This document shows positions 2,887-60,673 of a DNA stretch of 64,000 nucleotides, piece after piece. This DNA is from Pelagomonas calceolata (taxonomy: Eukaryota; Sar; Pelagophyceae; Pelagomonadales; Pelagomonadaceae), in contig CAKKNE010000003.1 in the NCBI GenBank assembly GCA_918797485.1, forward strand, positions 558,001-622,000, written 5' to 3'. Numbering within the stretch: the stretch's first letter is position 1; each line of letters opens with the position of its first letter. The notes below the pieces were generated by a model. That model saw only the letters and a program-made list of their open reading frames with translations. It ran no database searches and was not told where the DNA came from. The position numbers and the translations under genes are program-made.

Positions 2887-2910
2887 GCTAGCGGCATGTA
2901 AGACACTAGC
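2887..2910 (-). promoter_or_regulatory. Palindromic promoter motif, copy 1
   Basis: Reads GCTAGCGGC, ATG, TAAGACACTAGC, i.e. the motif in reverse orientation. It lies between divergent genes, 126 bp from the start at 2761 and 175 bp from the start at 3085. Confidence 0.65.
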
Positions 2911-3084
2911 AAGCTCCGGCTTTTTGTTGCAGCGTCGCGTTGCATAGGTTAAGCTTCGCGCAAACACTCGCATTGGTGCTCTACAAGCGCTGCGCACCCA
3001 ACTTGCAGAGCTTACAAGCCGACGGCGCTCCTTAGAAGCATTTTGCAACACCCTGGTCAAAAACAGCCTCCTCACAGCCTCACG

Positions 3085-3372
3085 ATGGCGGCTCAAACCG
3101 ACGAGGTCGCCGCATTGAAACGACGAATAGAAGAACTCGAACGCGCCGTCGCGGAGCACGAGTCCGGCGCGGTCGTGGAGCCGCATCTCGCCGCGAACAA
3201 AGACCTCGAGGCGACGTGTACTCGCCTGCGACAACGGTGTGAACAATTGGAGCGCGAGAACAGCACGCTCGCTTTAGCGTTAGCATATCGTCAGGTCAGC
3301 GGCGGCGGCGGCGGCGGCGGCGGAGGAGATGACGACGCGACCGCGGAGATTCCCGCGGAAGGAGTAAGTTAG
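3085..3372 (+). CDS. Short coiled-coil protein
   Basis: A 95-residue protein starting MAAQTDEVAALKRRIEELE. Residues 6-70 form a heptad-rich coiled coil (leucines in LKRRIEELERAV and LRQRCEQLEREN), followed by a run of nine glycines and an acidic end. The stop falls inside GAGTAAGTTAG, a good 5' splice-site match, so a longer spliced form is conceivable, but the next sequence downstream is the 3' end of the antisense Virilizer gene and no exon was found. Family unknown; it may be a small cytoskeletal or adaptor protein. Confidence 0.5.
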   Translation: MAAQTDEVAALKRRIEELERAVAEHESGAVVEPHLAANKDLEATCTRLRQRCEQLERENSTLALALAYRQVSGGGGGGGGGDDDATAEIPAEGVS

Positions 3373-3395
3373 GCTACGTCATTCATAAATTTAGA

Positions 3396-6300
3396 TCACC
3401 CTTTCCGCCGCTTGCGCCGCGGGTCGCGCGCGCCTCGCGGATCCGTCGCCGGCGGCGGCGGCGAGAAGCCCTCCCCCACCCCACCGTCCACCGGAGTCGG
3501 CGCCTCGACGACCTTCGCGCGTCGCTTCCGCGCACGCGGATCCGCCGGCGGCGCGACCGGTGGCGGCGCCGTCGGGTCAGCAGAGAAGCCCGTGGAAATG
3601 GCGGGCGCGGCGCGAGGGGACCCAGGGAGCATACCGGCGGCAGCCGCGCCACGCGCAGCACGCCTAGCGCGAGGATCGGCGGCCCCGCTCGTGGCGGCGG
3701 GCGCGACGGGTGCCGCGGCGGCGGCCGCGCGCACCTTGCCGAGCGCGAGCCGCCCGCGTTTCCGCGAGCCCCAGCCGCCCTGCGAGAGACCTGTGTGGAA
3801 ATCAACAGATGAGTTAGGGAATCGGCGTGGGGCGCCTGAAAAATTGATTTCCACACCGCGACAGACCCGACACACGGATCGCCTCGTCCGACGCCAGGGC
3901 CCCGGCCTCCTCCTCGCCGACGGCCTCCGCGACGGCTTTCCGCACGTGCTTCAGGGGCACGTTCTTCGCAGCGACCCGCAGCAAAGATCGGGAAGCATCC
4001 TCGCCGTCCCAGACGAGCCGCTCGCCGTAGCCTTGGCCAGCACGATTCAACCCGCCGAGACCCTGGTGGCGCCCCAACGCATGAGCCCTATCCCCGCCAA
4101 GCCGCATGGGCGGCTCGTCGTCGTCGTCGTGCTTCGCGACGCATTGTAGGTCAGAGTGCCACTTTTGTAAGGTTGCCGTCTGGCGGTCCGTTTCCCCCAC
4201 AATTTCGGAGGCCGCCTCGCGGCAGCGCTTGGCGACGTCGCCGTCGCTCTGCTTCGCCAGACTCTCGTCCTCATCCACAATCGCTTCGTTCGTCGCGGGC
4301 GCTTGCGACGCGTCGATGAGGTCGCGCGACGCGCGTTTCGCGACGCGGGCATAAGCTTTCAACACATCCGTGGCGTCGCCGGGGTGCTCCGCTTCCAACA
4401 CACTCCAGGCGTCCTCATTTTCATCAGCAAACAACCCCACGGCCCGCTGTAGTCCCTCAGCGACGTCGCCCTTCAATAAAGCGTTAACTTCCACCGGATC
4501 ACAGCGCGCGTCCCAAGCTAATGCTACTGGAGCTCTCGCGCAGTACGCCGCCGCCCGCAGTAGTTTCGCGGCTCGTGACGCCAATCCTTCAAAGACCTCG
4601 CGTCTTTCAGATAAGATTTTGCTTTTGAACTCTTCGGTAGTGTCCTCTTCGGGCGCGTCGGGCGCGTGCCCGGGCCCGCCCTCCCGCAGCGCTTCGAGAG
4701 AGGTCGTCAATCCGGTTACGGCCCTCGTTAATAAAGATGAGCCACCTGAGGAAGAGGAAGCAGCCCCCAGCGCCCTTAAGACGCGCGGCGCGTTCCTTCT
4801 TTCCCGCGCTAAAATGGCCAAGCAGCGCGCCGTCGACGCGTGGACGTGCGCGTCGGCCTTGTGGTACTTGGCCAAAACTTTGGCTAGGGCTCGAGCGAAG
4901 GCCGTCAGAAACGTCGTCGAGATGCCTGAGCCATACACTTCGTTGCGTTCGGGCGGAGGATAGCCCGCCAAGAGAGCGTCCAATGCGATCCTCGATTTCT
5001 CGATATCATCAGAAGCCGTCCGCTCCTGGGCGTCGTGCGTCAGGGCCGCGAGAGACTCCAACGCGAGTCGTAGCAACTCCGGCTTCGGTAATGACAAAGC
5101 GTCGACCAACACCAACGGCGCGCCGCAGGCGAACAGGGCCGTCCTACCGGACGACGAGCAACACGCCTCCCGGACGCCCGTGAGCAATCGCGCCGCGCGG
5201 TGCCAGGCCTCGAAATTTTCGAGCTCCCCGAACATCGCCGCCCGTTTTTCGTGGTCCTGTGCGTGACCGAAGCGGTCGCGTCGATGGCGTGGCGTAGTCG
5301 CGTCGATGGCATCGGAAAGGGACGCGGGCGCGAACCGTCTCGGCCCTTGCAGCGTATGCTTTCGCATCTTTGGCCTTGCCGCACTGGACCGCCGCTCTCG
5401 CTTCTAGGAGTAAGTACGAAGCGGTCTTTGCTCCACTGACAGGCCCGAGATCGACTAAGCCAGCCACGAGCTCCGACCCGACGCCTTGCAAGGCCTTGGC
5501 CGCGCTCTCCAGGCACTTCACGGCGAACTGAATCACTTCATTCGTGACGGCATCGTCCCATCTTGATCTCTGGGCTCTTTGGGCCGTTTCTTGTAACGCA
5601 CGCGCGTGGTTCCGCGCGCCTCTTCTCCCATCCAAACACGCCTGCAATGCTGCTCGTCTAGCATCCGCTCGATCGTCCTCCAATGAGTCGCGCAGCCCGA
5701 GCGAGTAGCCCACATATCCTCCATCGTCTAGATCCGCCACATCTTGTGACGAGGAAGGGAGGCACGGCGCCCGTCGCGGTAAACACCGTTCTAGGGCGGA
5801 CGCGCAGCCGAGCCACGCCGCTGGGGACGACCGGGCGAGTTTCGCGACCGCTTTACATAGTGACGAAGGCGACCACGTTTGAGACCAGTACTTCCGCAAC
5901 AAGAGTACTAAATGCTCAGCTAATGACTTAGCTTGGTTATACAGAGGCGTCTCGACCGGTCTTAATTCGTCCTCGTCCTCCATGCCGTCGTCACAGGCTC
6001 GCTCGTGGAGCAGGGGACCGAACGTAATACATAGCGACGAGATACACTTGAGCAACACATCCAAGACGTCCGCCTCGTCGCGCCATTGTTCAGAACATCT
6101 TATGGATGCTAACAACGTATCAGCTAACGCACAGGCAGCTAAGCCCGTATCTAGACACCTTTGTAAAGCTGAAAACCCCTCCTCCGTGTGGACCGGTTCG
6201 ACGTCCTCATCATAGTCTTCCTCGCCGTCCACACCGAGAGCCGAGACCCTGTTGGCCGCCGTATTTACTTGGTCATTGACGTCTCCAAGTAGAGGCGGCG

Positions 6301-8560
6301 GCACGTCGCCTCGCAGTAGTACGACTCTCGCTGCGACGGCGTCTAGCACGCGAAACACGCCGGAAGGATCTGAAGGTGATAATAACCGTCGCTTGATGGC
6401 CGCACTCAATAAGGATCGGAACGACTCCGTGTCATTCGTGTTCGCCGCGACGATTCTACGAGCTCTTAAACGAGCGTTCAGTGCCGATAAACCGCAGGTA
6501 GCCACTCTTAATGAAGCTTCGTGGTCCAGCGCCTCCCTTCCATAACTCAAGCCCTCGTAGTCCTCGTCCTTGTCAACCTCACCTATATCCTTCGCGACAC
6601 ACGCGGCCGTGTTGCAACAGGTCGTCACTAGCGCATCATCGTCCTCCTCTAGCGAGAAGACGGTCTCCGTGGTCCTTGCTAGAATCCGCAGTCGTCGCGC
6701 GACGTCTTGCACCGACGCGCAAGTCACCTCCCTTGATTCCTCTTTCAGCAACGCGCGCGCCGCAGCCGAGGCCGGGGCCGGGTCGCCGTCGCCACATAGT
6801 TTGCTTCGTACTTCACTTCGTTTCAGGGTTAATAAGCGGCACGCGGATGACGGCGCCGCCTCGCCGAATAATGACAGCAAAGCTAAAGCATGTTCGGCGG
6901 AGGCCGGGTCCGACGACGCTTGTAAGATGCAATCGAACGCACCTTCCGTCTCGCAGACGGCGCGAGTCATACTACTACAATCATTCGACTCGGCGACGAA
7001 TCTAATAGCACTCAACAATTCGGCGCGCGTCGGCGGGCCCGCGTCCTTATCTTGTGTGGAGGATATGCCCGGCAGCGGCGCGCTCATCTCGAAGGCTTCA
7101 GGTCTTTTGACAGGAGCGTCGGGGAGACTCCGAGCTAGCGTATAGGTCAGCCGCTGCGTCTGTACAATATCCGCAAGATCTGAGATGGAGCAGCACTCGA
7201 CGAAGGCGTCTGCTGCTCTTGGGCAGAGCGCCCAGAGTGCGCCGCCGCCTTCTACATCATTCAGTAAGTGGACGAGAGCGCCCAATGCTTCGTTACAGGG
7301 TGCCACCGACGCAGATGCGTCGCGCCGCGTCGCCGCATCCATAAAATCCTTGGCTACGCAATCACTCGTCGCGGCGGCTAGCGCGGCGCAGGACGCCGCC
7401 AACCTGCCTCGCAATAAGACGTCCAGCAACCGCGCATCTACCACAGGTTCCGAGGCGCCCCATTGTTCAGTCACAGATCGGGCCGCCGCGTCGCGACAAG
7501 CTCTTTCTAGTAAAGCGCGCACGGCGTCGCAGGCGCCCGTCGCATCGCGTAATCTAGGCCACGTCGGCGTCGCTAGACATGAAGCCGCCGCGTCTCTCAG
7601 AGAAGCGAGCGCTCGTACGAGACCGCATCTTCTCAAGAAACGGTTCGCATCCTTTACGAATGAGGGGCGCATGATCGGTGAATCTCTCAGTAGTCTACGG
7701 ACGACGGGCGCCGTGTCCAGTTTTGATGCCGCGTCGGGCGACGCCTCCGCGAGACTTCGCAACGCGCCCGCTACACTTTCCACTAGTCTTGGCGGCGCGT
7801 ACTCCTCGTCGAGGATACTACTGGATGAAGCCTGCACCGTATCTAGTAACGCCATCGACGCGAGGGACGCGTCTCCAGCACTACACGCCTGATCGATCAA
7901 CTGGAAGGCGGCCACTTGCGTCTCGTAGTCGTCCGAAGCGATGTTTGACGAGCAGCATTGTATGAGAGCCTCCCAATTGGCGGAGGGCAGCTTCTCGAGC
8001 GCTTGCTGCGGCGTCACGTCCGAGGGCCATTCGTCCTCGGCCTCATCTTCCAAGGATGAAGGTATCGTAGTAGCGTCCTGCTGCTCACCTCGCAATAGTC
8101 GATCCACAACGGGATCCAGGAGCAACCGAGCGCCGTCGCGCGACGGCGTTTCGTAGAACTCGGGGGGTGGCTTGGGTTTGGCATTTTTGGCCTTTTCCGC
8201 CGCCAGCGCCTCCCGTTCTAAGCGAGCTTCCTCTTTCAAGTCAGCTAACTCGCCGTAGACCGCCACGCAGACGCGGTAGTAGTCGCCTCTAAAGGCGAGC
8301 TTCGAGGTGACGACGCGCTCCTTCACGTCGCACGTGCCGCCTCTTGACACGGGGCCCTTGTGTATTTGACTGAGTTCCTTGGCGTCCTTCTTCTGAAAAC
8401 TCAATTCTAATTCAAAGGGTTCCTGTTGGGTCGTCGCGACGACGTCGTGCGCGAGCGTCGAGTGCGGCACAACCGAAAAGCGCTGGACGCGCACCGGCTT
8501 CGCGAACAAAATCTCGTCGTCGTGGGCCCTTCCTAGATGGCCGACGAAGAGGAGGCGCAT
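3396..8560 (-). CDS. Virilizer-like m6A methyltransferase complex scaffold
   Basis: The N-terminus (MRLLFVGHLGRAHDDEILF, then PVRVQRFSVVPH) matches the Virilizer N-terminal domain, which in animals and plants scaffolds the WTAP/METTL3 RNA m6A writer in the nucleus. The rest is a long Ala/Leu/Asp-rich helical-repeat protein, as in Virilizer, with an Arg/Pro-rich tail. I infer three exons: 8560-5336, 5256-3867 and 3790-3396, giving about 1669 residues. Both introns keep frame; the second is an introner whose left target copy (GTCTGTCG) supplies the donor. Using the element's own GT instead would cause a frameshift. The gene is divergent from the MYND-RINGv gene. The N-terminal match is good and the body is assigned by context and length. 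Confidence 0.68.
3791..3866 (-). mobile_element. Introner 1 (spliced MITE-like intron)
   Basis: In gene sense the intron is GTCTGTCG (left target copy), a 68-bp element with termini CGGTGTGGAAATCAA and TTGATTTCCACACAG, then GTCTCTCG (right target copy, 7 of 8 identical). Splicing from the GT of the left copy to the terminal AG restores the reading frame of the Virilizer-like gene. Confidence 0.8.
5257..5335 (-). mobile_element. Probable old introner in the Virilizer-like gene
   Basis: A 79-nt GT-AG intron deduced from the frame change between residues ending KAYAARAET and DHEKRAAMF. It contains two copies of the introner-internal string GCCATCGACGCGAC and ends CACGCACAG, but terminal inverted repeats and target duplication are no longer recognisable, suggesting an older insertion. 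Confidence 0.6.
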
Positions 8561-8741
8561 CTTTTATGTGGTGTGCGGCCTCGCCGCCTCGCTGCCAGTC
8601 TATTGTATTGTGTGCAGCGACGGCGCGCGCAGCGATGCTGCGTCCAGTTTCGCGCAGATGAAAGATCAAGCAAAGCTCCTGCGCAGCGCTGCTTGAATGG
8701 CGCCTCACGCGTGCTGCGCGCGCGGGCCGGCCACATATTAA

Positions 8742-8763
8742 CTAGCGTTATACCCCCACTAGC
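8742..8763 (-). promoter_or_regulatory. Weak copy of the palindromic promoter motif
   Basis: CTAGCG, 10 nt, CACTAGC keeps both ends of the motif but not its centre. It sits in the 368-bp divergent spacer between the Virilizer-like and MYND-RINGv genes, 179 and 166 bp from their starts. The rest of this spacer (8561-8928) shows nothing else. Confidence 0.4.
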
Positions 8764-8928
8764 GTTTTGAGCAGCGCAGGCTGCTTTGACGCATCGAACT
8801 AGCCGGCCCTGCGCGCGTAGAAATAATTGAAATTTGAATATCTCGCGGCTTGCGCTGCGAGCTGCGCCGGAGTCGCTGTGGAAGGCACCAGCCACACAGG
8901 CTCTCTGAGCGTCCGCAGCAAAGTCAAG

Positions 8929-10976: not shown

Positions 10977-10998
10977 GCTAGTGTCCTACAACGCTAGC
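10977..10998 (+). promoter_or_regulatory. Palindromic promoter motif, copy 2
   Basis: GCTAGTGTCCTAC, AA, CGCTAGC between divergent genes: 147 bp from the proteasome-like start and 211 bp from the phytoene synthase start. Confidence 0.65.
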
Positions 10999-12384: not shown

Positions 12385-12408
12385 GCTAGTGTGTTACAGG
12401 CCGCTAGC
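12385..12408 (+). promoter_or_regulatory. Palindromic promoter motif, copy 3
   Basis: GCTAGTGTGTTAC, AGGC, CGCTAGC lies 227 bp upstream of the EEP-family gene, between two genes of the same strand. Confidence 0.65.
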
Positions 12409-12634: not shown

Positions 12635-14464
12635 ATGTCTGACTTCCCCATCCGCTCGCGCAAGGGAGGAGCTAATCCGTACATATCCAGCGACGCTAAC
12701 ATGCCAGAGACGAAGCCACCGAGAGAGCCCGGCGCGGCCTACGTCTTCGTGCCGACGCTCGCGGCATGTGCTCTATTGCTCTTATACGTCGGCGTCGGAG
12801 TAGTAACAGGAGTCTCAACAGACTACGGCGTCTCCAGCGTAAGAGGTTCCTCCGCCAACGTCCTGAGAGTAGCCACCTGGAACGTCGCGGCCATCAACAA
12901 CAACCCCTTCGAGTACTGGATCACGCACGACGACAAGGCCTACAACAAGCTGATGAGCGACGTGCAAGAATTTGTGTCAAATCCGGGCGAGCGAGACGTG
13001 ATAGTCGAAGAGGTTTTTAGTGATCAGATGTGGGACTCGTTATCAAAGAAAATGAAGGACGTAGGATGGGCCGGCGTCGACGAAGTCGACAAGATGTGGA
13101 AGGACGATTTTCGGTCGAGAAAAATAGTAGGAGGCTTCCTGACGGATGCGACGCTTGGCAAGAAACGCCTGGCAAGTATGCCGGACAGGGTCACGAACAC
13201 GATCCGGACGGAAAATGGGAATGTGATGCGGCCGACGGTCATCAATTGTTTTAGCGGCGACCTGGGCACGCAGGAGAAGTGGTTCGAGGCTGTGTGGAAA
13301 TCAAATTGTCGCGGCGCTTCCAATGCCATCGACGCGATGTCAGCTCGATGGCGTGGCGGTGCCGGTTCCTCACCGCTCGAGAAAGGACTCACTGGTTGAT
13401 TTCCACACAGGTTCAAGGAGTGGATGGAGTTCATGTTCGAGACGCGCGTCAAGGACCAGATGGTCTACGAGACGTTGTTACCTATAAAAAGGAGCAAGTA
13501 CCCCGCGCTGTCTGAAGACGAAGAAAGGTTATCGATTCCCCTCCAGACGCTCTGTGGGGCTATTTTTGATGCTATTCTCGTGCATATGATGAACAGCATC
13601 GCGCCGACGACGTGGCAGCCTTTACGAAGCGAGCTGTGCGCCGCCCTGAACTCGCAAAAAGACTCGAGGACCCTAGAAATTCTGGAGAGAACGTACGGCG
13701 ACGCCGACGTCCTGTTCGTCCAGGAAGCCGCGTCGGCCTTTGTGAAGACGGCTTCAGCGTCATTGGGAAGCAAGTACCACATCCTCGCGCCGGCGAGCAT
13801 GGACCCGAAGCGCGACCAGAACTCCTTGGTCTTCCTCTGCAAGAAGCGCTTCCCCTCGACGGCGTCCGAGTTCACCGATGAAGTACTTTCTTCACTTAGT
13901 AAGGCTCCGGTCGCGAACGGCGACTTGTACGCCGCTACTGTGTTTGATTCTTCGAACCGGCCCTTCGTCGTCGCTTCTTTTCATGGGGACACGAACGGCC
14001 TAGCTACTATTCCTGTTACCGATGCTCTACTAGAGAAGATACCAGAGAACCACAAGCTCTTGTTCGGCCTCGACGCGAACACCTACGAGAACGAGAGGGA
14101 GGGCTACCAGGGCGCAGCCAAGTACCAGGCCTTTATCGTCGACAAGGGTCTCGGGTCCCAGCACGGTGTTGATAGTTCTATGGATGTGAAGAGGTATACG
14201 ACGTTCAACGCTCGAACATATCTGCAACCGCAGCTCAACAAGGCCGTGGCCTTCGACGAGCGTTATACAAATATCAACGTCGACCGGAACCCGAAGGACT
14301 TCATCCTCTATACACCTCGGGACTTTGAATTAGTGGACACCGGACGAGACAACACGGGCGAGCGGACGTATACCGAGGACATGATGTTCCCCACCCTCAA
14401 GTTCCCGTCGGACCACGGCGTCACGGCCGCGACGTTGAGGTTATTGCCGCGGCGGCGGGTGTAA
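12635..14464 (+). CDS. Membrane-anchored endonuclease/exonuclease/phosphatase-family protein
   Basis: Two exons, 12635-13281 and 13411-14464, give 566 residues. A single hydrophobic segment at about residues 36-60 (FVPTLAACALLLLYVGVGVV) after a basic N-terminus suggests a type II membrane protein. The lumenal or exterior part has EEP-fold landmarks: RVATWNVAAINNNP near the start, VLFVQEA in the middle, LLFGLDANTYE (the D-x-N pair), and PSDHGVTAATL at the end, the usual catalytic SDH. The family covers DNase I-like nucleases, inositol and sphingomyelin phosphodiesterases, so the substrate cannot be named. An insert of about 300 residues between the first and second motifs is long for the family. 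The intron is an introner. Confidence 0.7.
13282..13410 (+). mobile_element. Introner 2
   Basis: Left target copy GTTCGAGG, element 13290-13410 with CTGTGTGGAAATCAA and TTGATTTCCACACAG ends, right target copy GTTCAAGG (7 of 8). Splicing GT of the left copy to AG gives QEKW-FKEWMEF in frame. Retained, it would introduce a stop. The interior carries GCCATCGACGCGATG and its complement. Confidence 0.85.
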
Positions 14465-14649: not shown

Positions 14650-14672
14650 GCTAGTATCTTACAAGCCGCTAG
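14650..14672 (+). promoter_or_regulatory. Palindromic promoter motif, copy 4
   Basis: GCTAGTATCTTAC, AAGC, CGCTAG followed by ATAATCT, 171 bp upstream of the membrane-protein start at 14843. The flank ATAATCT recurs at copy 7. Confidence 0.65.
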
Positions 14673-14842
14673 ATAATCTTGGGCATCGCGGCGCGTCTCA
14701 GCCTGGAAAGCTGCCATTGCCCTGTAGTTTTACGCGGCGCGTCAGTGCGCGAGTCTCTTACGCCATCGCTGCGCTGTGAACTCAAAGTTTCCGGACATAT
14801 TCACGTGTCAGTGCCCAAATCACTGCAAGCCACCAATCAACC

Positions 14843-17208: not shown

Positions 17209-17231
17209 GCTAGTGTCTTACTGCCGCTAGC
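17209..17231 (+). promoter_or_regulatory. Palindromic promoter motif, copy 5
   Basis: GCTAGTGTCTTAC, TGC, CGCTAGC between divergent genes, 168 bp from the RBR start and 185 bp from the PITH start. Confidence 0.65.
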
Positions 17232-19356: not shown

Positions 19357-19378
19357 GCTAGTGACTTAGGCCGCTAGC
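19357..19378 (+). promoter_or_regulatory. Palindromic promoter motif, copy 6
   Basis: GCTAGTGACTTAG, GC, CGCTAGC, 224 bp upstream of the minus-strand RING-CXXC start at 19133. The remaining bases of 19134-19457 show nothing else. Confidence 0.6.
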
Positions 19379-20358: not shown

Positions 20359-20381
20359 GCTAGTGTCTTACAAGCCGCTAG
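20359..20381 (+). promoter_or_regulatory. Palindromic promoter motif, copy 7
   Basis: GCTAGTGTCTTAC, AAGC, CGCTAG followed by ATAATCT. It sits between divergent genes, 278 bp from the start at 20081 and 169 bp from the start at 20550. Confidence 0.65.
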
Positions 20382-20549
20382 ATAATCTCGAAGGCGCACA
20401 CTCCCGCGGATCGCACAGGGCGCCAGCGCAGCCCCGGGCCGCCCACCGCACGCAGCGGTACGACCACACGTCCTGCGCGGCGGCTGCCCCGCTCCGGGAC
20501 CCCAGGCGAAAGCAGGGCACACCGCACCGCACGGAAGGCCCGAAAGACA

Positions 20550-26569: not shown

Positions 26570-27286
26570 CTAGGTGTACTTGACCCCCCCCATGAACGCG
26601 CGCGGGTCGGGGACTTGCCCGTTGAATTCGGCAGACCTAAAGTCGAAGCCGGGATGCTCCTCCTGAAACCTTTCGATCATGAGCTCGCGCTGGATCTCCT
26701 GGCGCGTGAAGGGGTCGACCTGGCCCCTTCCACCTAAGGCCGTGCCCCACGTTTCTCCTTTTCTCATTTTCGACATGGCCACCGTGATCTCGCCGTCGAC
26801 CATGTAGAAGTGCGACTCTTTGGCGACGATGGGCCCGCCCGTCGGCTCGTCCAGGAACGGCGGGTTGCCCCTTAACCCAAGTCGTAAATGCGACGGCGTC
26901 AGCTTGCAGTCGATCATGTCCGGCGTTACTCCAGGAGGCGGCTTCACATAGATGTTGACATCCTCCAAGCTCTGGTCCCATTCATAAATCAATCGACCTT
27001 CGTGCTTGAACTGGTAGCGGCCGACCTCGCTGCCCTTGGGCGTCAGCGAGCCCACCGACCGGACGCCGCCCTTGGCGTCCATGACGTGGCCGTCGGGCCC
27101 GGCGGCCTCGCGCGTGCGCGCGACGTTGCCGCCCTTGACTTCATTCGTCATCGTCGGCTTCGTGTACTGCGCGCCCTCGGGGATGCCTTGGGGGTCGAGC
27201 TTCTGTTGTGGCGGTGCGGGTGCCGGCGCGTCGTCGTCGCTGTCGTCCAGATTATCAAATTTGCTGTAGTCCGCGAGGCGCGACAT
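26570..27286 (-). CDS. CS/NudC-domain protein
   Basis: 238 residues from the ATG at 27286 (MSRLADYSKFDNLDDSDDD). The N-terminal 80 residues are acidic and disordered. A CS/NudC-like beta-sandwich runs from about 100 to 190: IYEWDQSLEDVNIYVKPP, LRLGLRGNPPFLDE, SHFYMVDGEITVAMSKM and GETWGTALGG. The tail (RELMIERFQEEHPGFDFRSA then GQVPDPRAFMGGV) is a conserved signature of NUDCD-type HSP90 co-chaperones. A role in protein folding with HSP90 or dynein-linked transport is known for the family. It is divergent from the gene at 27690. Confidence 0.85.
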   Translation of the reverse strand: MSRLADYSKFDNLDDSDDDAPAPAPPQQKLDPQGIPEGAQYTKPTMTNEVKGGNVARTREAAGPDGHVMDAKGGVRSVGSLTPKGSEVGRYQFKHEGRLIYEWDQSLEDVNIYVKPPPGVTPDMIDCKLTPSHLRLGLRGNPPFLDEPTGGPIVAKESHFYMVDGEITVAMSKMRKGETWGTALGGRGQVDPFTRQEIQRELMIERFQEEHPGFDFRSAEFNGQVPDPRAFMGGVKYT

Positions 27287-27465: not shown

Positions 27466-27488
27466 GCTAGAGGCTGTAAGACACTAGC
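27466..27488 (-). promoter_or_regulatory. Palindromic promoter motif, copy 8
   Basis: GCTAGAGGC, TG, TAAGACACTAGC between divergent genes, 180 bp from the NudC-domain start and 202 bp from the start at 27690. Confidence 0.65.
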
Positions 27489-29549: not shown

Positions 29550-29572
29550 GCTAGTATGTCTACACACGCTAA
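29550..29572 (+). promoter_or_regulatory. Weak copy of the palindromic promoter motif
   Basis: GCTAGTATGTCTACACACG, CTAA keeps the left half only. It lies between divergent genes, 123 bp from the start at 29427 and 125 bp from 29697. A second motif, ACGCCATCGATGCGAC, follows at about 29619. Confidence 0.35.
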
Positions 29573-29696
29573 TTCCGGCCTCAACTCGCGCGCGCAGCGA
29601 TATAAGACGCTGCAGACGCCATCGATGCGACATTAAATCATTAGCATTGGTCTGCGTCGTAGCTGCATCACTCACGCTTGCTCACACCTGCAACAA

Positions 29697-35094: not shown

Positions 35095-35117
35095 GCTAGT
35101 GTCTTACGGCCGCTAGC
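35095..35117 (+). promoter_or_regulatory. Palindromic promoter motif, copy 9
   Basis: GCTAGTGTCTTAC, GGC, CGCTAGC, 180 bp upstream of the proline dehydrogenase start. Confidence 0.65.
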
Positions 35118-40632: not shown

Positions 40633-40654
40633 TGCTAGTGTCTCGACATACTAG
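40633..40654 (+). promoter_or_regulatory. Palindromic promoter motif, copy 10
   Basis: GCTAGTGTCTCGAC, ATA, CTAGC, 134 bp upstream of the GT32 start. A CGCCATCGCTGCG string also abuts this ATG. Confidence 0.6.
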
Positions 40655-40787
40655 CCTTCGACCTCGAATTCAGTCGAGCAAACCAGTAGGATTGCTGTAA
40701 TTCTGTCTTAATTCGTTGCATTCGAGCGCAACATATCAACCACAGCACCGCGGCACAAAGGGGGCAGCCGCAAACGCCATCGCTGCG

Positions 40788-45304: not shown

Positions 45305-45328
45305 GCTAGCGGCCTGTAAGACACTAGC
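45305..45328 (-). promoter_or_regulatory. Palindromic promoter motif, copy 11
   Basis: GCTAGCGGC, CTG, TAAGACACTAGC between divergent genes, 184 bp from 45121 and 264 bp from 45592. A half-copy, CACTAGTGCATTAC, occurs at 45258. Confidence 0.65.
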
Positions 45329-45591: not shown

Positions 45592-47889
45592 ATGGCCGAG
45601 CGCAACCCATCGACGCCGACGCGGCGTGTGCGCATATCGAGCGCGTCGCCGACGCGGTCGCCCGTGCGCCTCACGACGCCGCCGCGCACGCGCGCTGGGA
45701 AGCGGAGCCCCTACGCGTCTCCCGCCAGGAGCCCGTACCGGTCGCCGCCGACGACGCCGCGTGGAAGCGCCGCCGTCACCGTGCTCGGCAAGCGCGTGCC
45801 GCGCGTCAGCCTCCCGATCCTCTGGTGGCTTCAAGCGAGGACGCGCGCCGCCGTGCTCGAGAAGCGGTTGAAAAACATGCCGCGGGAAGACCCAAGCGAG
45901 GCCACCGCGTTAAGAGCGCGCGTGGCAGCTTTGGAGGAGGCCGTGCGCCAGGCGGAGTTGCACGCGGCGCGGCAGACCGCGCGCGCGACGGAGGCCGAGG
46001 CCAAGGCCGCGCGGCTCATCGAGGCACCGCCGGCCTACGACACGGCCGAGGGCGAGCGGATATTGAAGGAGCGCCTCGACGAGCTGCGCCGCGGCACGCT
46101 GGACGCGCTGCGCGCGGCCGAGGCGAAGAACGAGCGCCTCGCGGCCGAAAACGCCGCGGCGACGCAGGAACTCGCAGAGTGCCGCCGGAAGCTCGCCATG
46201 GACCACGTCGAGGCGGAGTCGAAGCTCGCGGCGGAGCTCGACCGGCTCACGGCCGAGACCGTCGAGGCGAAGCGCCAGCTCAACGACTGCCGCCGGAAAT
46301 TGGCCATCGAGAAGCGCCGCGCTGAGAACGCTCCTCGGCGCGAGCGGGCGGCTGCAGCCGTCGCGTTGCGGGCCCAAAAGGCCGTCGTGGCGCTCAACGC
46401 CAAGTGCGACGACTTCTGCCGGAAGGTTCTGTTAAAAGCGCACGACGACGTCGCGGGAGGCCTGGACGCGTGGCTCCGCGACAACCGGCAGCCCCTCCTC
46501 GAGACGGCCGCGATCTACGCGGCGCGTCGGCGGCCGTTCTCCGGGAAAAGCGTCGAGGAGCCCGCCGTCGATATAAATGAGCCCGTCCGGCGCATCCTCG
46601 ACGTCGCCACGCGGCGCCAGCAGCTCCTCCCGACGATCGCGCCCCTTGTCGAGGAGCGCGACGCCCGGGCGACGACGGGCTGCGACGCCGCATTGGGTGC
46701 TGTCATGGCCGTCGCCGCGCAGCGCAACGAGGCGCGGTTAATACAGGCGCAGCAGCGGCTTGAGGCGCTGGCGACGGCCGCGGAGCGGGCCGCGGCCGGC
46801 GCGTCCGGCGCCGTCGGCGCCATCGCACACCCCGACATTCAACAAACCATCGCGGACGAGAAGGAGTCGAGACGGACCGCGGCCGTGAGCGAGTTCCGCG
46901 CGCAGCGCCGCGCCGTCGACGCGGAACTCGCCGACCTGCGGACGACGCGCGCGCGCGCGGTCGACTCGCTGCGGAAGGAGCGCGCCGATCGCGCGAAGAC
47001 GGACACCGCGCGGGAGGCCGCGCTGGCCGCGGCGGCGTCGGCATCGAGCCGCCTGACCGCGCGGCGCGTGGCCAAGGCCGTGCGCGAGACCGAGGACCGG
47101 GCCTTCTCGGCGCACGCGCTGGCCCTCGAGGACGCGGCGACGGCACAGCAACAGCGTCACCGCCAGGCTCTGGCCGACGCCATCGCCGCCTGCGAGGCGC
47201 GCCACGCCGAGGCGCTGGACCAGCGCCGCCGCCGCGACGTCGCGCTCGCGGCCTCGCTGCGCGGCGCGAAGCAGCGCGCCAAGGGGCCGCAGCACGTCGC
47301 GGCCTGTGTGGAAATCAACCAGTGCGTCGGGTGCGACAATTCTTCACTAAGTCATGTCTCGGCGATGGCGTGGCCGCGCTGGTTCCGTCGAGCGGCGAGG
47401 AATCGGCATCGCCAAGCCATCGAGCAGGCGTCGCGTCGATGGCGTGGAGGACGACGCGATGATTCAGCACGAACGCGCCGTAAAATTTTGATTTCCACAC
47501 AGGTCGCGGCGGAGCGCGCCCGCGACTCGCTCGCCGAGGCCGCGGCGGCGGTCGACGTCCTCTACCAGCAAGAGGCCGCGCGCATCGACCGGCGGCCGCG
47601 GCGGCGCGAGGGCGCCTACGCGGCGGCGCCGGCGGCGCCGGCGCCATCGGACGCCGCCCTCCCGCCACCGCCGCCGCGCCGGGCGCCTCCGCCGCCGCCG
47701 ACGCGCGCCTCGACGCGCGCTCGCGGCCGCCACGGGACGCCTCGGCCGCCGCCGCCGCCGGCGTCGCGGCCCCGAAATCATCGCGTCGCGGCCCCGTTGA
47801 AGCTCGGCGCGTGGAACAAGACGACGCGCACGGAGCCGATGCCGTTCAAGCACAATTACACGGTTCCTGGGTCTGATGTGGCGTCGTAA
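45592..47889 (+). CDS. Large coiled-coil protein
   Basis: Exons 45592-47295 and 47503-47889 give 696 residues. The N-terminal 70 residues are basic and rich in SPTR, TPR and SPAR sites suited to proline-directed kinases. Residues 85-560 are heptad-rich coiled coil with high Ala, Arg and Glu, including two related segments (LAECRRKLAMDH and LNDCRRKLAIEK). The tail is Pro-Arg-rich and ends with a non-repetitive motif KLGAWNKTTRTEPMPFKHNY, which may be a conserved docking end. A centrosomal, basal-body or flagellar structural role is possible but unproven. Without splicing, the introner would add 69 codons and no stop, so both forms are readable. Confidence 0.65.
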   Translation: MAERNPSTPTRRVRISSASPTRSPVRLTTPPRTRAGKRSPYASPARSPYRSPPTTPRGSAAVTVLGKRVPRVSLPILWWLQARTRAAVLEKRLKNMPREDPSEATALRARVAALEEAVRQAELHAARQTARATEAEAKAARLIEAPPAYDTAEGERILKERLDELRRGTLDALRAAEAKNERLAAENAAATQELAECRRKLAMDHVEAESKLAAELDRLTAETVEAKRQLNDCRRKLAIEKRRAENAPRRERAAAAVALRAQKAVVALNAKCDDFCRKVLLKAHDDVAGGLDAWLRDNRQPLLETAAIYAARRRPFSGKSVEEPAVDINEPVRRILDVATRRQQLLPTIAPLVEERDARATTGCDAALGAVMAVAAQRNEARLIQAQQRLEALATAAERAAAGASGAVGAIAHPDIQQTIADEKESRRTAAVSEFRAQRRAVDAELADLRTTRARAVDSLRKERADRAKTDTAREAALAAAASASSRLTARRVAKAVRETEDRAFSAHALALEDAATAQQQRHRQALADAIAACEARHAEALDQRRRRDVALAASLRGAKQRAKGPQHVAACVEINQCVGCDNSSLSHVSAMAWPRWFRRAARNRHRQAIEQASRRWRGGRRDDSARTRRKILISTQVAAERARDSLAEAAAAVDVLYQQEAARIDRRPRRREGAYAAAPAAPAPSDAALPPPPPRRAPPPPPTRASTRARGRHGTPRPPPPPASRPRNHRVAAPLKLGAWNKTTRTEPMPFKHNYTVPGSDVAS
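47296..47502 (+). mobile_element. Introner 5, best-preserved copy
   Basis: Perfect 8-bp target duplication GTCGCGGC at 47296-47303 and 47503-47510 flanks a 199-bp element (47304-47502) whose ends CTGTGTGGAAATCAA and TTGATTTCCACACAG are exact inverted repeats. Donor GT comes from the left duplication and acceptor AG from the element end, restoring QHVAAERARD. Confidence 0.92.
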
Positions 47890-54833: not shown

Positions 54834-55373
54834 TCACGACCCCTTCTTGGTCTCGTCGTCGAAGGACTCGAAGCCCACGGTCCGGTTGATGCCCAGGATC
54901 CGCACCCGATGCATGCCCGGCAGTTTGGGCAGGATGCAGAGGAGCGCGTAGATGGGGACATGTATGGTCAGTGCTTGTCGCGAAAAGTCCGCCGCATTTA
55001 AATAAGCCAGCAGGACGAGCGTCGGCACGATGAGGAAGACTTTTTTGGTGGCGGACCACGACGCGCCGCCGTCGAGCTGCTCCCAGACCGTCAAATCATC
55101 GTAATCGCCCTGCGCGTGCGTGTCCGGCGAGCCCTTGGCCCAGTGGAAGAAGACGAAGGTCACGAGCGCGTGTGCCACGTTCGTCGCCGACAGGGACTGC
55201 TCGGACGTGTAGCCCGAGCCGTGGATCGCGCCGTAGACGATCAGAATGAGCATGACGTAGGTCGCCGCGAACCTTGTGGTATCGATCTGGAAGCACTCCA
55301 CCGCCACATTTCGCTTCGGGTCCGGGTCCATGCCGGAGAGGTAGTTGTCCGAGTAATTTCGTGGGACGGGCAT
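54834..55373 (-). CDS. ORMDL-family regulator of sphingolipid synthesis
   Basis: 179 residues from the ATG at 55373 (MPVPRNYSDNYLSG). It matches ORMDL along its length: ATNVAHALVTFVFFHWAKGSPDTH, DLTVWEQLDGGASWSATKKVFLI, ILPKLPGMHRVRILGINR, with four hydrophobic segments. ORMDL proteins sit in the ER membrane and inhibit serine palmitoyltransferase when ceramide is high. The region after GINR is short and acidic. Divergent from MPP alpha with a promoter motif between. Confidence 0.88.
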   Translation of the reverse strand: MPVPRNYSDNYLSGMDPDPKRNVAVECFQIDTTRFAATYVMLILIVYGAIHGSGYTSEQSLSATNVAHALVTFVFFHWAKGSPDTHAQGDYDDLTVWEQLDGGASWSATKKVFLIVPTLVLLAYLNAADFSRQALTIHVPIYALLCILPKLPGMHRVRILGINRTVGFESFDDETKKGS

Positions 55374-55685
55374 CTTTCTTTGTCGGGCACCGCGGCGTCG
55401 AGCGTCGAGCGTGGGCGGCGGGCGCGCCGCGGCGGCGTCGGCGTGTCGGCGGCGCAAGGGCGGCTTTGGCGAAGCCCTGGGCCGCTTGCGGGCGGCGGAT
55501 TGACGCTGCGGCGCTGGCGGAACGCGCGGCGCTGCGCACGGCGGTGGGGCCTTTCGGGGCCTAGCCGGAAGCGGGGCGTTTCTGTACGCTTGTTATGCGT
55601 GCGGCGGCAGTATGAGACGGCCAGAACGTCTCGCGCTGCTGGATGAGCTGTTGGAGCCGCCAAAGAGAGCCGACAAAAATGGCTT

Positions 55686-55710
55686 GCTAGTGTCTATACA
55701 TGCCGCTAGC
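55686..55710 (+). promoter_or_regulatory. Palindromic promoter motif, copy 12
   Basis: GCTAGTGTCTATAC, ATGC, CGCTAGC between divergent genes, 313 bp from the ORMDL start and 191 bp from the MPP alpha start. Downstream, a GGCCCGGGCCTC and CCCAGCGATTTCGAC direct repeat pair lies near 55810-55870. Confidence 0.62.
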
Positions 55711-55900
55711 TGCCTTCGCTTTTGCAGGGGCCAAGCGCAGCCGCTGCGCAGCATACGTGCCCTCATTTGACGGCGAGGAGTTCTCTTGCAACGTATAACT
55801 GCGCCGCGCCAGCGATTTCGACAGGCGCCCAGCCTCTGGCCCGGGCCTCTCCCTGCCTCTGGCCCAGCGATTTCGACGCCCGGAGACGCGACGTTGCACC

Positions 55901-57379: not shown

Positions 57380-57450
57380 TCTTAAGTGTTTAATAGCGTT
57401 AGTTAATCGATAAGTTGTGCGACGACGGCGACGTGTCGACGGCGCGTCGA

Positions 57451-57797
57451 CTAGGTCTGCTTCGGGTGGAAGCCGTGCCAGAATTTGGGGGTGACCGCGT
57501 GCTTGATCGTCAGCGCGTGGATGTAGCACGCCGTCAGCGTCAGGACGGCGGCGAGGATGCGCCCGACGACCTTGAAGAAGCGCCACGCCCGTGTCCGTAT
57601 GGATCTGGTACGTCGACATCGTCAGCGTCACCATCGGAAACACGACGCCCCACCAGTTCGGAGCGAAGGGAATGCCCGTGCCGCCGCCGAGGCCGAGGCG
57701 GCTGCTCAGCGACGAGTGGTGGAAGGACGTGGACGAGGCCAGAAAATACACCCAGACTCCGAAGCCCCACAGGAACAAGCCGATGGCGATGGCTCAG
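57451..57797 (-). pseudogene. C-terminal fragment of a TDT/SLAC1-like membrane transporter
   Basis: The frame gives AIAIGLFLWGFGVWVYFLAS, then PNWWGVVFPMVTLTMSTYQI, a pattern seen in tellurite-resistance/dicarboxylate (TDT, SLAC1-like) channels, and after a one-base slip RFFKVVGRILAAVLTLTACYIHALTIKHAVTPKFWHGF. The frame starts abruptly after a stop at about 57797 and no upstream transmembrane segments precede it, so the first roughly eight helices are missing. It looks like a decayed remnant, or a short gene whose start I cannot place. Confidence 0.45.
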
Positions 57798-57941
57798 ATT
57801 GGCTTCAATGGCGCCTAAACCGCGACAGGAGCACAGGTTTCCGTTTTTCCGCTGGATGCGCGCACTCAGAGGGGCCTCTTTGATGAGCAAGGAACTCGGC
57901 GCGCCCGATCAACCGAGATCAGCGCGCTGGGAATATGGCGA

Positions 57942-57965
57942 GCTAGCGTCCAGTAAGACACTAGC
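57942..57965 (-). promoter_or_regulatory. Palindromic promoter motif, copy 13
   Basis: GCTAGCGTC, CAG, TAAGACACTAGC, 117 bp upstream of the aldo/keto reductase start, the closest spacing in the window. Confidence 0.65.
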
Positions 57966-58081
57966 AAGCTGGGAGAGCCTGGTCGCAGCTCAGCCGCACG
58001 CCGGCGCAAGAGCTCCACAGTTCGATATTTCGACCGCTCGCATCTGTTTGACAACTGGCGCTGTCGCTCCCGTGAAACACA

Positions 58082-59119
58082 ATGCGGCTCGCCTCGCGCC
58101 TCGCGACGGCAATGATAGGGGCGGCCCGCGGCCTGTCCCGGTCGTCGCCGCGCATGAGTTCGCTCAGCAGCGCCCCGACCGTCGCGCTCAACGACGGCAC
58201 GAGCCACCCGCAGATCGGCTTCGGGACGTACAAGGTCGGCTTCATCCCCGCCTCCGCCTCGGCGGCCGTCGCCGGCGCCGAGGAGAGCGGCGGCGAGGTC
58301 GCCACTGCCACGGACATCGTCGGGGACGCGCTGGACGTCGGGTATAGGTTTCTGGACTGCGCGCAGTTCTACGGGAACGAGGTCCAGGTCGGCGAGGCGA
58401 TTAAAACATCAAAAATTCCCCGGTCGGACTTATACTTAGCCTCGAAGTGCTGGTCCGATGCGATATATGACGGGCCGGCCGCCGTCCGAGCGCAAGTCGA
58501 GCGGTCGCTGCGTGATTTAAACACGGAGTATCTCGATTTGTACCTGGTCCACTGGCCCGTGCCGGGGAAGCACGTCGCCGCCTACCTCGAGCTCGAGAAA
58601 TGCCAAGCGGAAGGCCTCGTGAAGTCCATCGGCGTCTCCAACTACGCCGTCGAGGACATCGAAGAGCTCCTCAGGGAGGCGTCGGTCGTCCCGGCCGTGA
58701 ACCAGATCGAGTTCAACCCCTTTTTGTATAGAAGGAAGACGCTGGACTACCTCACGAAGAAGGGCATCAAAATCCAAGCGTACCGGGCGCTGCGCGACGG
58801 CAAGGCATTCGACGACCCGACGATCAACGCCGTCGCGAGTAGGCACGGCGCGACGCCGGCCCAGGTACTGGGCGCCTGGTGCGTCGCCAAGGGCGCCATC
58901 TACATGCCCAAGTCGACGCGGCGGGAGCGCATGGTCGAGAACGCGGACGTTTTTGACCTGGCGGCGGCGCTCGACGCGGACGACTTTTCCAGGCTCGACG
59001 CGCTCACGACGCCCGAGGCCATCGCGGCGTACAAGGCCCTCTACGAGAAGTGCGTCGTCCGCGACACTCCCTTAGACGAGTCTGATCCGGGCATCAAGCG
59101 GGATATCACGGCCGGCTAG
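58082..59119 (+). CDS. Aldo/keto reductase, possibly organelle-targeted
   Basis: 345 residues. NADPH-dependent carbonyl reductase fold with the four catalytic residues in the expected blocks: FLDCAQFYGNE (Asp and Tyr), LASKCW (Lys) and DLYLVHWPVPG (His). The segment GVSNYAVEDIEELL and the C-terminal cofactor block IYMPKSTRRERMVENADVF follow. An insert (IPASASAAVAGAEESGGEVATATD) separates strand 1 from helix 1 and is unusual. The first 25 residues (MRLASRLATAMIGAARGLSRSS) are basic and amphipathic, a mitochondrial-type leader; a second ATG at 58154 (MSSLSSAP) would give the cytosolic form. Confidence 0.88.
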   Translation: MRLASRLATAMIGAARGLSRSSPRMSSLSSAPTVALNDGTSHPQIGFGTYKVGFIPASASAAVAGAEESGGEVATATDIVGDALDVGYRFLDCAQFYGNEVQVGEAIKTSKIPRSDLYLASKCWSDAIYDGPAAVRAQVERSLRDLNTEYLDLYLVHWPVPGKHVAAYLELEKCQAEGLVKSIGVSNYAVEDIEELLREASVVPAVNQIEFNPFLYRRKTLDYLTKKGIKIQAYRALRDGKAFDDPTINAVASRHGATPAQVLGAWCVAKGAIYMPKSTRRERMVENADVFDLAAALDADDFSRLDALTTPEAIAAYKALYEKCVVRDTPLDESDPGIKRDITAG

Positions 59120-59157
59120 TTTTAAGATTCTTAGTAACAACACATACATGGACGCCG

Positions 59158-60504
59158 TCACCCGACGACCGTCGACGGGACGTAGGCCCCGTGGCAGGGC
59201 ACGGCCGCGGCCGCGTCCGTCCGCGGCGGGTCGCGCCCGACGCAGCCGCAGGCCGTCTGGTTCGCGGAGGGCAGCCGGCAGCAGCCGTTCGTCCACCTAT
59301 CTAGATTGCGCTCCGTCTCCCAGTATAGCGATTTGCCGTCCCAGGCGCCGCCCTGCTCCGCGTCCAATTCATAAATCTGGCTCTCGAGCACGGCGTCGCG
59401 CGCGAAGGGCCGCCGGTCGAGCCGGTGGCGGAAGGCGTCGCGCACGTGGCGCTGGCCGAGGTCGAGGCGGTGGCCGCACGCGTGCTGGTCGATGACGGCG
59501 GGGTCCTTGGCCCAGGCCTGCGAGCAGCCCCAGCAATCCAAGAACTGCGGCGCGGGCGCCCGGCCTTCCACTTCGAGGAAGCGCAGCGCCGTCGGCACGC
59601 TCACCTCGTGGTGGAATTTAAACTGCGTCCCGCAGAGTTGCGCAAAGTCCGCGAAGATGGGAGACGGCAGGTAGAAGAGGTCGGCCCAGGCGGCGCAGGC
59701 CTCGGGCTCCTTCGCACGTGTCGGCGCGCTCGCGGCCCACGCGCGGCGCGCCTGGTCCTTCGCGTCGTGGCCCCACGTCCATTCTCTATCGACGTCGAGC
59801 GCCTCGCCGCCCAGGCAGTACCGCCCGAAGACCCGGAACTCGCGGACGGCGTCGTCGGGCGGGCGATTCAAACCCGCCGCGAGCGTCCACGGCCGCTTGA
59901 GATCCAACGCGCCCGCGTCGACCTGTGTGGAAATCAACCAGTGTGTCGGGTGGACTTCACAAAGTCGTTTCTCGGCGATGACGTGGCCGCGAACGCGCCG
60001 TAAATTTGATTCCACACAGGCGTCGACGCGGTGCGCGAACGACGGCGGGTCCAGCCAGAAATCTAGGTGCGCCACGACCGCGCCGGTGACGCCCCCCGTC
60101 CCGCGCCAGTGGGGCCGCAGCCACGGCGGCGGCTCGTCGCGCCTCGAAAACGTCGCGAGCTGCCCGAAGAGCTGCGCGTAGGCCGCGACGTAGGGGTCCC
60201 GGCCGGCGCCGCGGCGGGCCAAGAAGCAGGCGACCCCATACCGGTCGCAGGCGTCCTGCGAGGGCACGGTCGCCGTCGCGCCCGTCGCTTCGTGCGAGCG
60301 CCGCCGGCCCGCCGTGCCCGGCAGCACGAGGTAGGCGACGCCGCCGAACCAGCGCTCGTACCTCCTGGAAATGTAGAGGCGCTCGACGAAGGCCTGATGG
60401 CTTACGAGCAGCGTGCCGCGGAGAGTTTCGGATGCTGCAGCTGTGCTGCTGCCGGCCAGCAGAAGGAGTAGCGTGCCGCATCGATGGCGTCGAGGCTGCG
60501 GCAT
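59158..60504 (-). CDS. Secreted Cys-rich protein of unknown function
   Basis: Exons 60504-60028 and 59922-59158 give 413 residues. The ATG at 60504 (MPQPRRHRCGTLLLLLAGSS) starts a signal peptide. Mature blocks include YERWFGGVAYLVLPG, CDRYGVACFLA, VVAHLDFWLDPP, YLPSPIFADFAQLCG and FLDCWGCSQAW, with about 18 cysteines, and an end rich in Cys (NGCCRLPSANQTACGC). The D-x-W/D-F pattern recalls extracellular glycosyltransferases but no family is assured. The introner lies after the Val-Asp codons; unspliced, its 105 nt keeps the frame open, adding 35 residues. Confidence 0.6.
   Translation of the reverse strand: MPQPRRHRCGTLLLLLAGSSTAAASETLRGTLLVSHQAFVERLYISRRYERWFGGVAYLVLPGTAGRRRSHEATGATATVPSQDACDRYGVACFLARRGAGRDPYVAAYAQLFGQLATFSRRDEPPPWLRPHWRGTGGVTGAVVAHLDFWLDPPSFAHRVDACVESNLRRVRGHVIAEKRLCEVHPTHWLISTQVDAGALDLKRPWTLAAGLNRPPDDAVREFRVFGRYCLGGEALDVDREWTWGHDAKDQARRAWAASAPTRAKEPEACAAWADLFYLPSPIFADFAQLCGTQFKFHHEVSVPTALRFLEVEGRAPAPQFLDCWGCSQAWAKDPAVIDQHACGHRLDLGQRHVRDAFRHRLDRRPFARDAVLESQIYELDAEQGGAWDGKSLYWETERNLDRWTNGCCRLPSANQTACGCVGRDPPRTDAAAAVPCHGAYVPSTVVG
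59923..60027 (-). mobile_element. Introner 6, opposite orientation to introner 5
   Basis: The 97-bp element (59923-60019) is flanked by a perfect duplication GCGTCGAC on the plus strand (59915-59922 and 60020-60027), which reads GTCGACGC in gene sense. On the plus strand its left part (AACCAGTGTGTCGGGTG) and right part (GAACGCGCCGTAAA) match introner 5, but here the host gene is on the minus strand. Confidence 0.92.
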
Positions 60505-60650
60505 TGTCTCCGGTGACACTCAATAGATTAGGATGGATAACCGTTACAGCACGCAGTGCAACGGGTCTAGTCTAGCCCTTGCAAGCACAAGTAGACCCGC
60601 GGCGGCTGGTGGCTAGGCAGCCAAGCGCAAAAAGCGCAGAGGAAGGGGCA

Positions 60651-60673
60651 GCTAGCGGCCGTAAGACACTAGC
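60651..60673 (-). promoter_or_regulatory. Palindromic promoter motif, copy 14
   Basis: GCTAGCGGC, CG, TAAGACACTAGC, 147 bp upstream of the secreted-protein start at 60504. Confidence 0.65.

Follow-up and report, generated by a model that had tools for sequence, protein, structure and literature searches.

What is the interrupted palindrome that recurs upstream of genes in Pelagomonas calceolata, and what might it do there? The question was raised by a 64,000-nucleotide stretch of contig CAKKNE010000003.1, assembly GCA_918797485.1 (hereafter the window, C3:558001-622000), for which a first-pass annotation had listed 14 clear and two weak copies of such an element. It had been proposed that the element marks nearly every 5' intergenic region and could be the main core-promoter or insulator element of the lineage. 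The element is a two-part site, 27 bp in all, with the consensus TTGCTAGTGTCTTAC-spacer-GCCGCTAGCT, and in the stretches sampled it is confined almost entirely to promoter-side intergenic DNA. At a probability of roughly two in three, we consider it to be the predicted double-stranded DNA site of a lineage-specific nuclear protein or complex that would open shared bidirectional promoters.

The assembly comprises 32,445,274 bases in 8 contigs, and the RCC100 genome has been described as six nuclear contigs totalling 32.4 Mb together with a plastid and a mitochondrial contig, at a GC content of 63% (PMC9481584). Unless stated otherwise, statistics were computed on a 304-kb sample of this genome that consisted of the window, 22 stretches of 10 kb placed at round coordinates chosen beforehand, and two stretches (L045 and L046) that had been picked as orthologues and were kept; gap counts were also computed without the latter two. 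Loci picked for carrying the motif (L001-L008) were excluded. A weight matrix was built on the 304 kb and scanned on the same 304 kb, and a score of at least 15 defined an accepted site. Coding segments were called by means of a phase-specific Markov model trained on long open reading frames (ORFs), resulting in 228 segments that cover 74% of bases. A Pfam family above the curated cut-off was found on the called strand for 12 of 20 tested window ORFs. Gene ends are those of the coding-potential calls, and distances run to called coding segments rather than to annotated start codons.

None of the 60 accepted sites fell within a coding segment. Divergent gaps held 34 of them and tandem gaps 22, while a single site was situated in a convergent gap and 3 were at stretch ends. 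This corresponds to densities of 1.29 sites per kb in divergent, 0.81 in tandem, 0.11 in convergent and 0 in coding DNA (divergent over convergent, p=0.0007; tandem over convergent, p=0.016). The enrichment in 5' regions seen in the window is borne out by the wider sample, with 0/60 sites in coding DNA and 1/60 in a convergent gap. Occupancy was lower than had been proposed. A site was present in 34/56 divergent, 22/93 tandem and 1/55 convergent gaps (32/53, 20/88 and 1/51 without L045 and L046), and in the window 8/15 divergent gaps of at least 150 bp carried a strong copy, or 10/15 when weak copies were included; "nearly every" 5' region was an overstatement. With 22/56 divergent gaps devoid of a strong copy, "main" promoter element is also too strong a term. 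Many tandem gaps are short and some are introns; among those of at least 350 bp the fraction with a site was 17/35. The possibility that all motif-less divergent gaps harbor degenerate copies was rejected, as a relaxed half-site palindrome was detected in 1/19 of those spanning 150-1199 bp at 0 mismatches and in 6/19 at one, and most are truly without the element.

Sites occurred singly. No divergent gap held two, where 9.2 collisions were expected and 0/20,000 simulations were collision-free, and the 22 tandem sites were distributed over 22 gaps (4.3 collisions expected, P=0.004; gaps <150 bp were excluded from both tests). An exception was observed elsewhere in the genome, namely two exact 13-mers 37 bp apart at C1:575887 and C1:575924. 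Divergent gaps with a site were shorter than those without (median 434.5 vs 509.5 bp, p=0.0096), and occupancy by gap length was 0/2 below 150 bp, 1/1 at 150-249 bp, 7/7 at 250-349 bp, 16/24 at 350-499 bp, 9/19 at 500-799 bp and 1/3 above that. Divergent sites were found near the gap centre, at median distances of ~193 and ~203 bp to the two coding segments. For the 33 sites in gaps <800 bp, longer gaps having been excluded, the mean distance to the nearer coding segment was 170 bp compared to 114 bp under uniform placement (0/5,000 simulations as high).

Orientation was neutral. The 60 sites were split 30/30 between strands, and in tandem gaps 11 had the same orientation as the gene and 11 the opposite one. 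Tandem sites were positioned 57-396 bp from the called downstream coding segment, apart from one at 1,529 bp, with a median of ~185 bp. A core-promoter element in the strict, oriented sense (TATA or initiator type) is not supported by these data, since neither orientation nor distance, measured to coding segments, is fixed in the 22 tandem gaps; this part of the initial proposal was not upheld.

According to the preferred explanation, a protein or complex would recognize a site of the form (TT)GCTAGTGTCTTAC-N0-6-CGCTAGC(T), with a spacer mostly of 4 nt resembling AGGC. Contact would be dimeric or multipartite, involving two inverted half-sites GCTAGYG and an asymmetric core TCTTAC. One bound site in the middle of the gap, ~200 bp from the neighbouring coding segments, would keep the region open and transcription would start on either side of it, such that one site could serve two divergent genes. 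It would act much as general regulatory factor sites do in yeast, or as motifs of bidirectional promoters do in human.

Central position in divergent gaps, one site per gap, neutral orientation and presence in tandem gaps are also what an insulator or boundary might display, in which case the bound protein would keep the promoters of a divergent pair apart, or set a promoter off from the gene upstream of it, without activating either. A proposed precedent is BEAF-32, described as binding between head-to-head genes (PMC6911014). We nevertheless regard an insulator as unlikely. A general boundary could equally sit in convergent gaps, where the site was found in 1/55 (only 21/55 of these reach 150 bp), and in the divergent gaps of 250-349 bp, 7/7 of which carry the site, a shared activator seems more natural than a pure separator. 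Insulator and activator are inseparable by sequence.

In the window, all 14 clear copies were recovered at the positions initially listed with matrix scores of at least 15. The weakest, at 40633 (15.5), was missed by a pattern search of the window tolerating 4 mismatches. Six of the 14 match GCTAGTGTCTTAC-N2-5-CGCTAGC exactly, a number reached in 0/100 shuffles, and 7/14 deviate from this literal pattern by 1-3 bases. Our gene calls place 8/14 in divergent and 6/14 in tandem gaps, with 0 in coding segments and 0 in convergent gaps, in agreement with the promoter-side position of the clear copies and with the eight reported to be shared by divergent pairs. The two weak copies (8742 and 29550) were confirmed as degenerate relatives but both score below the accepted threshold. 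The copies and their neighbouring genes are as follows.

2887..2910, minus strand: palindromic element, spacer 4, divergent gap (exact match; score 45.7)
10977..10998, plus strand: element, spacer 2, divergent gap; the plus-strand gene is a squalene/phytoene synthase (PF00494) (score 38.2; Pfam)
12385..12408, plus strand: element, spacer 4, tandem gap (score 43.5)
14650..14673, plus strand: element, spacer 4, last base A, tandem gap (score 41.3)
17209..17231, plus strand: element, spacer 3, divergent gap between a RING/IBR protein (minus) and a PITH-domain protein (plus) (exact match; score 46.7; Pfam)
19357..19378, plus strand: element, spacer 2, tandem gap (score 38.8)
20359..20382, plus strand: element, spacer 4, divergent gap; the plus-strand gene encodes a C2/FYVE protein (score 44.5; Pfam)
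27466..27488, minus strand: element, spacer 3, divergent gap; the minus-strand gene has a CS domain (score 37.1; Pfam)
35095..35117, plus strand: element, spacer 3, tandem gap (exact match; score 40.1)
40634..40655, plus strand: weakest accepted copy, initially listed at 40633, tandem gap (score 15.5)
45305..45328, minus strand: element, spacer 4, divergent gap; the minus-strand gene is a methyltransferase (exact match; score 47.6; Pfam)
55686..55710, plus strand: element, spacer 5, divergent gap between ORMDL (minus) and an M16 peptidase (plus) (score 34.8; Pfam)
57942..57965, minus strand: element, spacer 4, divergent gap; the plus-strand gene is an aldo/keto reductase (exact match; score 46.9; Pfam)
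60651..60673, minus strand: element, spacer 3, tandem gap between two minus-strand genes, the upstream one with a RING finger (exact match; score 46.7; Pfam)
8742..8763, no strand assigned: degenerate relative, a perfect half-site palindrome with another core, in a divergent gap without a strong copy
29550..29573, plus strand: degenerate relative in a divergent gap without a strong copy (score 7.8)

The called coding segment of the minus-strand CS-domain gene extends to 27466, yet its best ATG is at 27286.

Across the sample, the CTAG of both arms was almost invariant in the matrix, with TT upstream and T downstream present at 63-72%. Spacer length, counted from TAC to CGCTAGC, was 4 nt in 25, 3 nt in 14 and 2 nt in 12 of 60 copies, with lengths of 1 nt (3 copies), 5 nt (3), 0 nt (2) and 6 nt (1) being rarer. 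The full range is 0-6 nt with a mode of 4, compared to the 2-5 nt first given. Among 100 exact-arm copies listed, all on contig 1, spacers of 4 nt (66) and 3 nt (24) were followed by 2 nt (5), 0 nt (3) and 5 nt (2), and the commonest letters of the 4-nt spacers among the exact-arm matches listed for this contig were A, G, G and C. Tyrosine-recombinase type sites have inverted arms around an asymmetric core of fixed length, and a site of this type was rejected on account of the spacer variation. Beyond the element the flanks are nearly informationless; the 99% null level is surpassed in a few columns, of which three belong to the five bases directly upstream.

The 13-mer GCTAGTGTCTTAC has 869+872 = 1,741 exact occurrences in the genome. 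Full sites whose arms are exact and whose spacer is 0-8 nt long number 646+676 = 1,322; the reversed pattern gave 0 in both searches. Allowing at most 1 mismatch, the 13-mer was found 3,251 times in the genome vs 12 for the control. The matrix scan returned 63 sites at a score of at least 8, 60 at 15 or more and 57 at 20 or more. Three shuffles of the 304 kb gave 0 sites at 16 or more and means of 0.67 at 14 or more and 4.0 at 8 or more, and the reversed sequence gave 0 at 10 or more and 2 at 8 or more. As 63 sites at the lowest threshold compare to 57 at the highest, copies in decay are all but missing. The 41 sites scoring at least 15 in the 22 stretches (220 kb), with at least one site in 19/22, extrapolate to a genome total of ~6,000 copies (95% interval 4,300-8,200). 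Paired matches on C1 and C5 at near-equal coordinates (48575/48534 and 283581/283535) are consistent with the >99% identical duplication shared by the ends of contigs 1 and 5 (PMC9481584). Among the matches listed, reverse-strand ones on contig 1 end near 0.78 or 1.70 Mb, depending on the listing; a strand domain along this contig was rejected, whole-genome strand counts being balanced. A low-GC stretch, L014 (C1:2700001-2710000; 48% GC), had 0 sites and 0 coding calls from a gene model trained on high-GC genes, and among the matches listed no forward-strand exact 13-mer was present between C1:2600152 and C1:2963178. A putative centromeric low-GC region has been described (PMC9481584), and the element may be absent from it (C1:2600165-2963177).

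Matches outside the assembly provided a view of a second lineage. Six matches came from bacterial and archaeal genome contigs, scanned with the proviso that records close to the P. calceolata genome may be left out, and a search of viral contigs with one pattern, subject to the same proviso, returned none. Contigs L031, L034, L032 and L035 match the P. calceolata genome, the latter two over part of their length. L033 and L036, which were not compared with it, may be chance matches, of which ~17 are expected in 257 Gb by our own estimate. L031 and L034 (NZGT01000041.1 and NZGT01000013.1) belong to a metagenome-assembled genome (MAG) labelled Spirochaeta sp. MED672 and are syntenic with P. calceolata. 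These contigs are interpreted as mis-binned pelagophyte DNA of a sister lineage and are usable as a sister-genome sample. L034 has the same order as C6 over ~10 kb at 83-94% by segment and L031 matches C6 at 82% over 7.8 kb, giving an overall range of ~82-94% by segment for the two. Two further contigs from this MAG, L048 and L050, align to C6 and C3 with 76-87% identity.

As to conservation in sister species, named as a check by the first-pass annotation, the site was present in both lineages at 5/6 orthologous positions (L034/L045 and L031/L046), which include all five P. calceolata sites of score at least 15 in L045 and L046. Motif identity at the four shared sites of the same orientation was 88, 96, 67 and 88%. 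Identity was 34-49% in six of the eight 50-bp flanks of these sites and 64 and 72% in the remaining two, against a median of 44% and a 95th percentile of 54% for unrelated 50-mers. The L031 site is situated past the end of alignable sequence, and some orthologous stretches of L034 and L045 received differing gene calls. At the fifth shared position (L034:5351-5376 vs C6, L045) the element is inverted, with 93% identity on opposite strands, and its flanks are uninverted; such a flip inside an uninverted gap fits an orientation-neutral function. The closer contigs L032 and L035 (matching parts 89-96%) say little on constraint because the site they share is inside alignable sequence. Six MAG contigs (43.4 kb; L031, L034, L048 and L050, which were compared with the P. 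calceolata genome, and L049 and L051, which were not) contained 14 sites scoring at least 14, with 0 in coding DNA, 0 in convergent gaps, 4 in divergent gaps, 7 in tandem gaps and 3 at ends. L031, L032, L034, L035 and L048-L051 had been picked for holding the motif or a near match; presence in the P. calceolata genome and the further L034 copies are free of motif-based selection.

The copy flipped between lineages without flank inversion, the inverted ends and the long, little-varied sequence with surplus information could also point to a mobile or copied element of very small size that had invaded open promoter DNA and persisted there without a transcription role of its own. We find this improbable. 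Target duplications of 2-8 bp, the mark of a mobile miniature inverted-repeat transposable element (MITE) that the first-pass annotation had named as counter-evidence, were looked for under three boundary definitions and were not in excess among 57 copies. There is almost no flanking homology and almost no decayed copies, no called gap of the sample holds two (the pair 37 bp apart is elsewhere in the genome), and 5/6 orthologous positions are common to the sister lineage with flanks mostly diverged. A MITE or introner remnant was rejected in view of the lack of duplication excess, the flat score distribution and the shared orthologous positions, the latter being a small sample.

Less probable still is a replication origin or chromosome-organising site in open intergenic DNA. 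Intergenic and orientation-neutral placement, a frequency of about one per 5 kb and the lack of a site in L014 would be compatible with it, but the density seems high for origins, and a bias towards 5' rather than 3' gaps speaks for promoters.

The outermost pair of the arms was G-C in 44 of the 60 copies. A one-sided change was seen in 14 copies and a two-sided one in 2, with T-G as the outcome in one of these two; pairing was impossible in 14/60, and one copy had G-T. The T-G position of the arms read T-G in 56 copies, C-G in one and T-A in one, and pairs of the CTAG part varied in 0 or 1 copy each. No clear compensatory arm changes were found among the 60 copies, and the element is therefore taken to function in duplex form, not folded into a hairpin; an RNA or DNA hairpin was rejected on this basis. 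A role at the RNA level, as a hairpin or small RNA transcribed from 5' regions, is hardly credible, for although on one strand the ends can fold into a stem of 7 bp that includes one G-U pair, the outermost pair cannot form in 14/60 copies (G-T and T-G copies could wobble-pair in RNA), orientation relative to genes is even, and no Rfam match was obtained in the window at gathering scores.

Several observations weigh against a protein that opens shared promoters. A strong copy is missing from 22/56 divergent gaps, and a spacer ranging from 0 to 6 nt is not what a rigid dimer usually shows. The sixth orthologous position (L034:459, score 24.5) has no P. calceolata counterpart above 8.1. The convergent-gap site (L009:3664) is in a gap of ~1 kb without a called gene, and since convergent gaps are short (21/55 reach 150 bp) the near-absence of sites there rests on 9.1 kb. 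Gene ends are our own coding-potential calls, and the reading is a prediction from sequence. Lastly, the information in a site can be compared with that needed for the number of sites. The element carries ~35 bits (sum of matrix columns, somewhat inflated as the matrix was trained on accepted sites), far above the ~13 bits needed for ~6,000 sites among 65 million positions by our own arithmetic, and a simple activator site would not explain this. The excess is the least explained property, and because of it more than one reader is suggested, for example two half-site subunits and a core reader. A more specific model, in which bidirectional promoters would be defined by a lineage-specific pelagophyte complex reading the 27-bp, ~35-bit site (central, one per gap, serving two genes, with half-site readers, a core reader and a flexible spacer), is put forward tentatively, at somewhat less than even odds.

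The Abf1 site is gapped and two-part. The element shares this form and, like yeast general regulatory factor sites, sits in intergenic DNA on the promoter side of many genes unrelated to one another; it differs from them in its 27-bp length, ~35 bits, one copy per gap, central position in divergent gaps and variable spacer. Yeast Abf1 and Reb1 sites occur in promoter regions of many genes and are believed to bring in chromatin remodellers and establish nucleosome-free regions, and the repertoire of these factors shifts between yeast lineages (PMC2897762). Enrichment in divergent gaps is shared with human bidirectional-promoter motifs, among which ZNF143 is likened here by description. Palindromic half-sites distinguish the element from ZNF143 sites, for which we know of no such structure. 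ZNF143 is described as typically binding upstream of an initiation site and stimulating initiation, and motifs of this kind are enriched in human bidirectional promoters (PMC11118474). In Drosophila, Insv binds a palindrome, BEAF-32 is described as binding between closely apposed head-to-head genes, and ELBA-dependent insulation was reported alike for divergent, tandem and convergent pairs (PMC6911014). The element resembles BEAF-32 and ELBA/Insv sites in its palindromic ends and in sitting between head-to-head genes, and differs in sequence, length and its occurrence in 1/55 convergent gaps. Pelagophyte introners are ~210 bp and form introns (PMC9481584). They are dispersed repeats of the same genome as is the element, which unlike them is 27 bp, promoter-side and almost without conserved flank.

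As the first-pass annotation had supposed, no published description of the element was found in limited literature searches or in the genome paper's main text. A search with the letters CTAGTGTCTTAC had a yeast diphthamide paper as its lone match, and the terms motif, palindrom, promoter, regulatory element, cis-regulatory, transcription factor and bidirectional are absent from that main text (PMC9481584).

Other repeats were noticed. A second dispersed element, approximately GGCTCAGGCTCAGGCTAGTTACGTCGCAGGGTTCCCCG, is present at 60697-60708 of the window (minus strand) and at L020:697, L021:5426, L027:6075, and L029:3913 and 4069. GGCTAGTTACG with at most 1 mismatch occurs at 7 places in the 304 kb. 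Six of these lie in tandem gaps and without exception share the strand of the genes on either side, and in 5/6 the palindrome is downstream in the same gap; the seventh, mismatched, is coding. CTCAGGCTAGTTACGT has 112 genome occurrences vs 0 for the control. The second element (GGCTCAGGCTCAGGCTAGTTACGTCGCAGGGTTCCCCG) is possibly a terminator-like or tandem-gap element. GGCTGCCCC was counted 11 times in divergent gaps, 5 times in tandem gaps and 4 times in coding DNA, and GGCTGCCC/GGCAGCCC is enriched in gaps both with and without the palindrome, GGCAGCCC also occurring 18 times in coding DNA; these are perhaps another promoter motif. Introner-like repeats include a 77-nt inverted pair in the window (13304-13380 and 47388-47464) and a ~156-bp repeat in the sister contig (L034:299-455) with dozens of copies in the P. 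calceolata genome.

A specific motif in 34/56 divergent gaps is a handle on the protein predicted to open promoters there, and it would allow shared promoters to be predicted from sequence. If the more specific model holds, promoters throughout a eukaryotic genome would be marked by a single motif of great length in place of short degenerate elements. The element is a natural test case for why promoters would be marked with far more sequence information than is needed.

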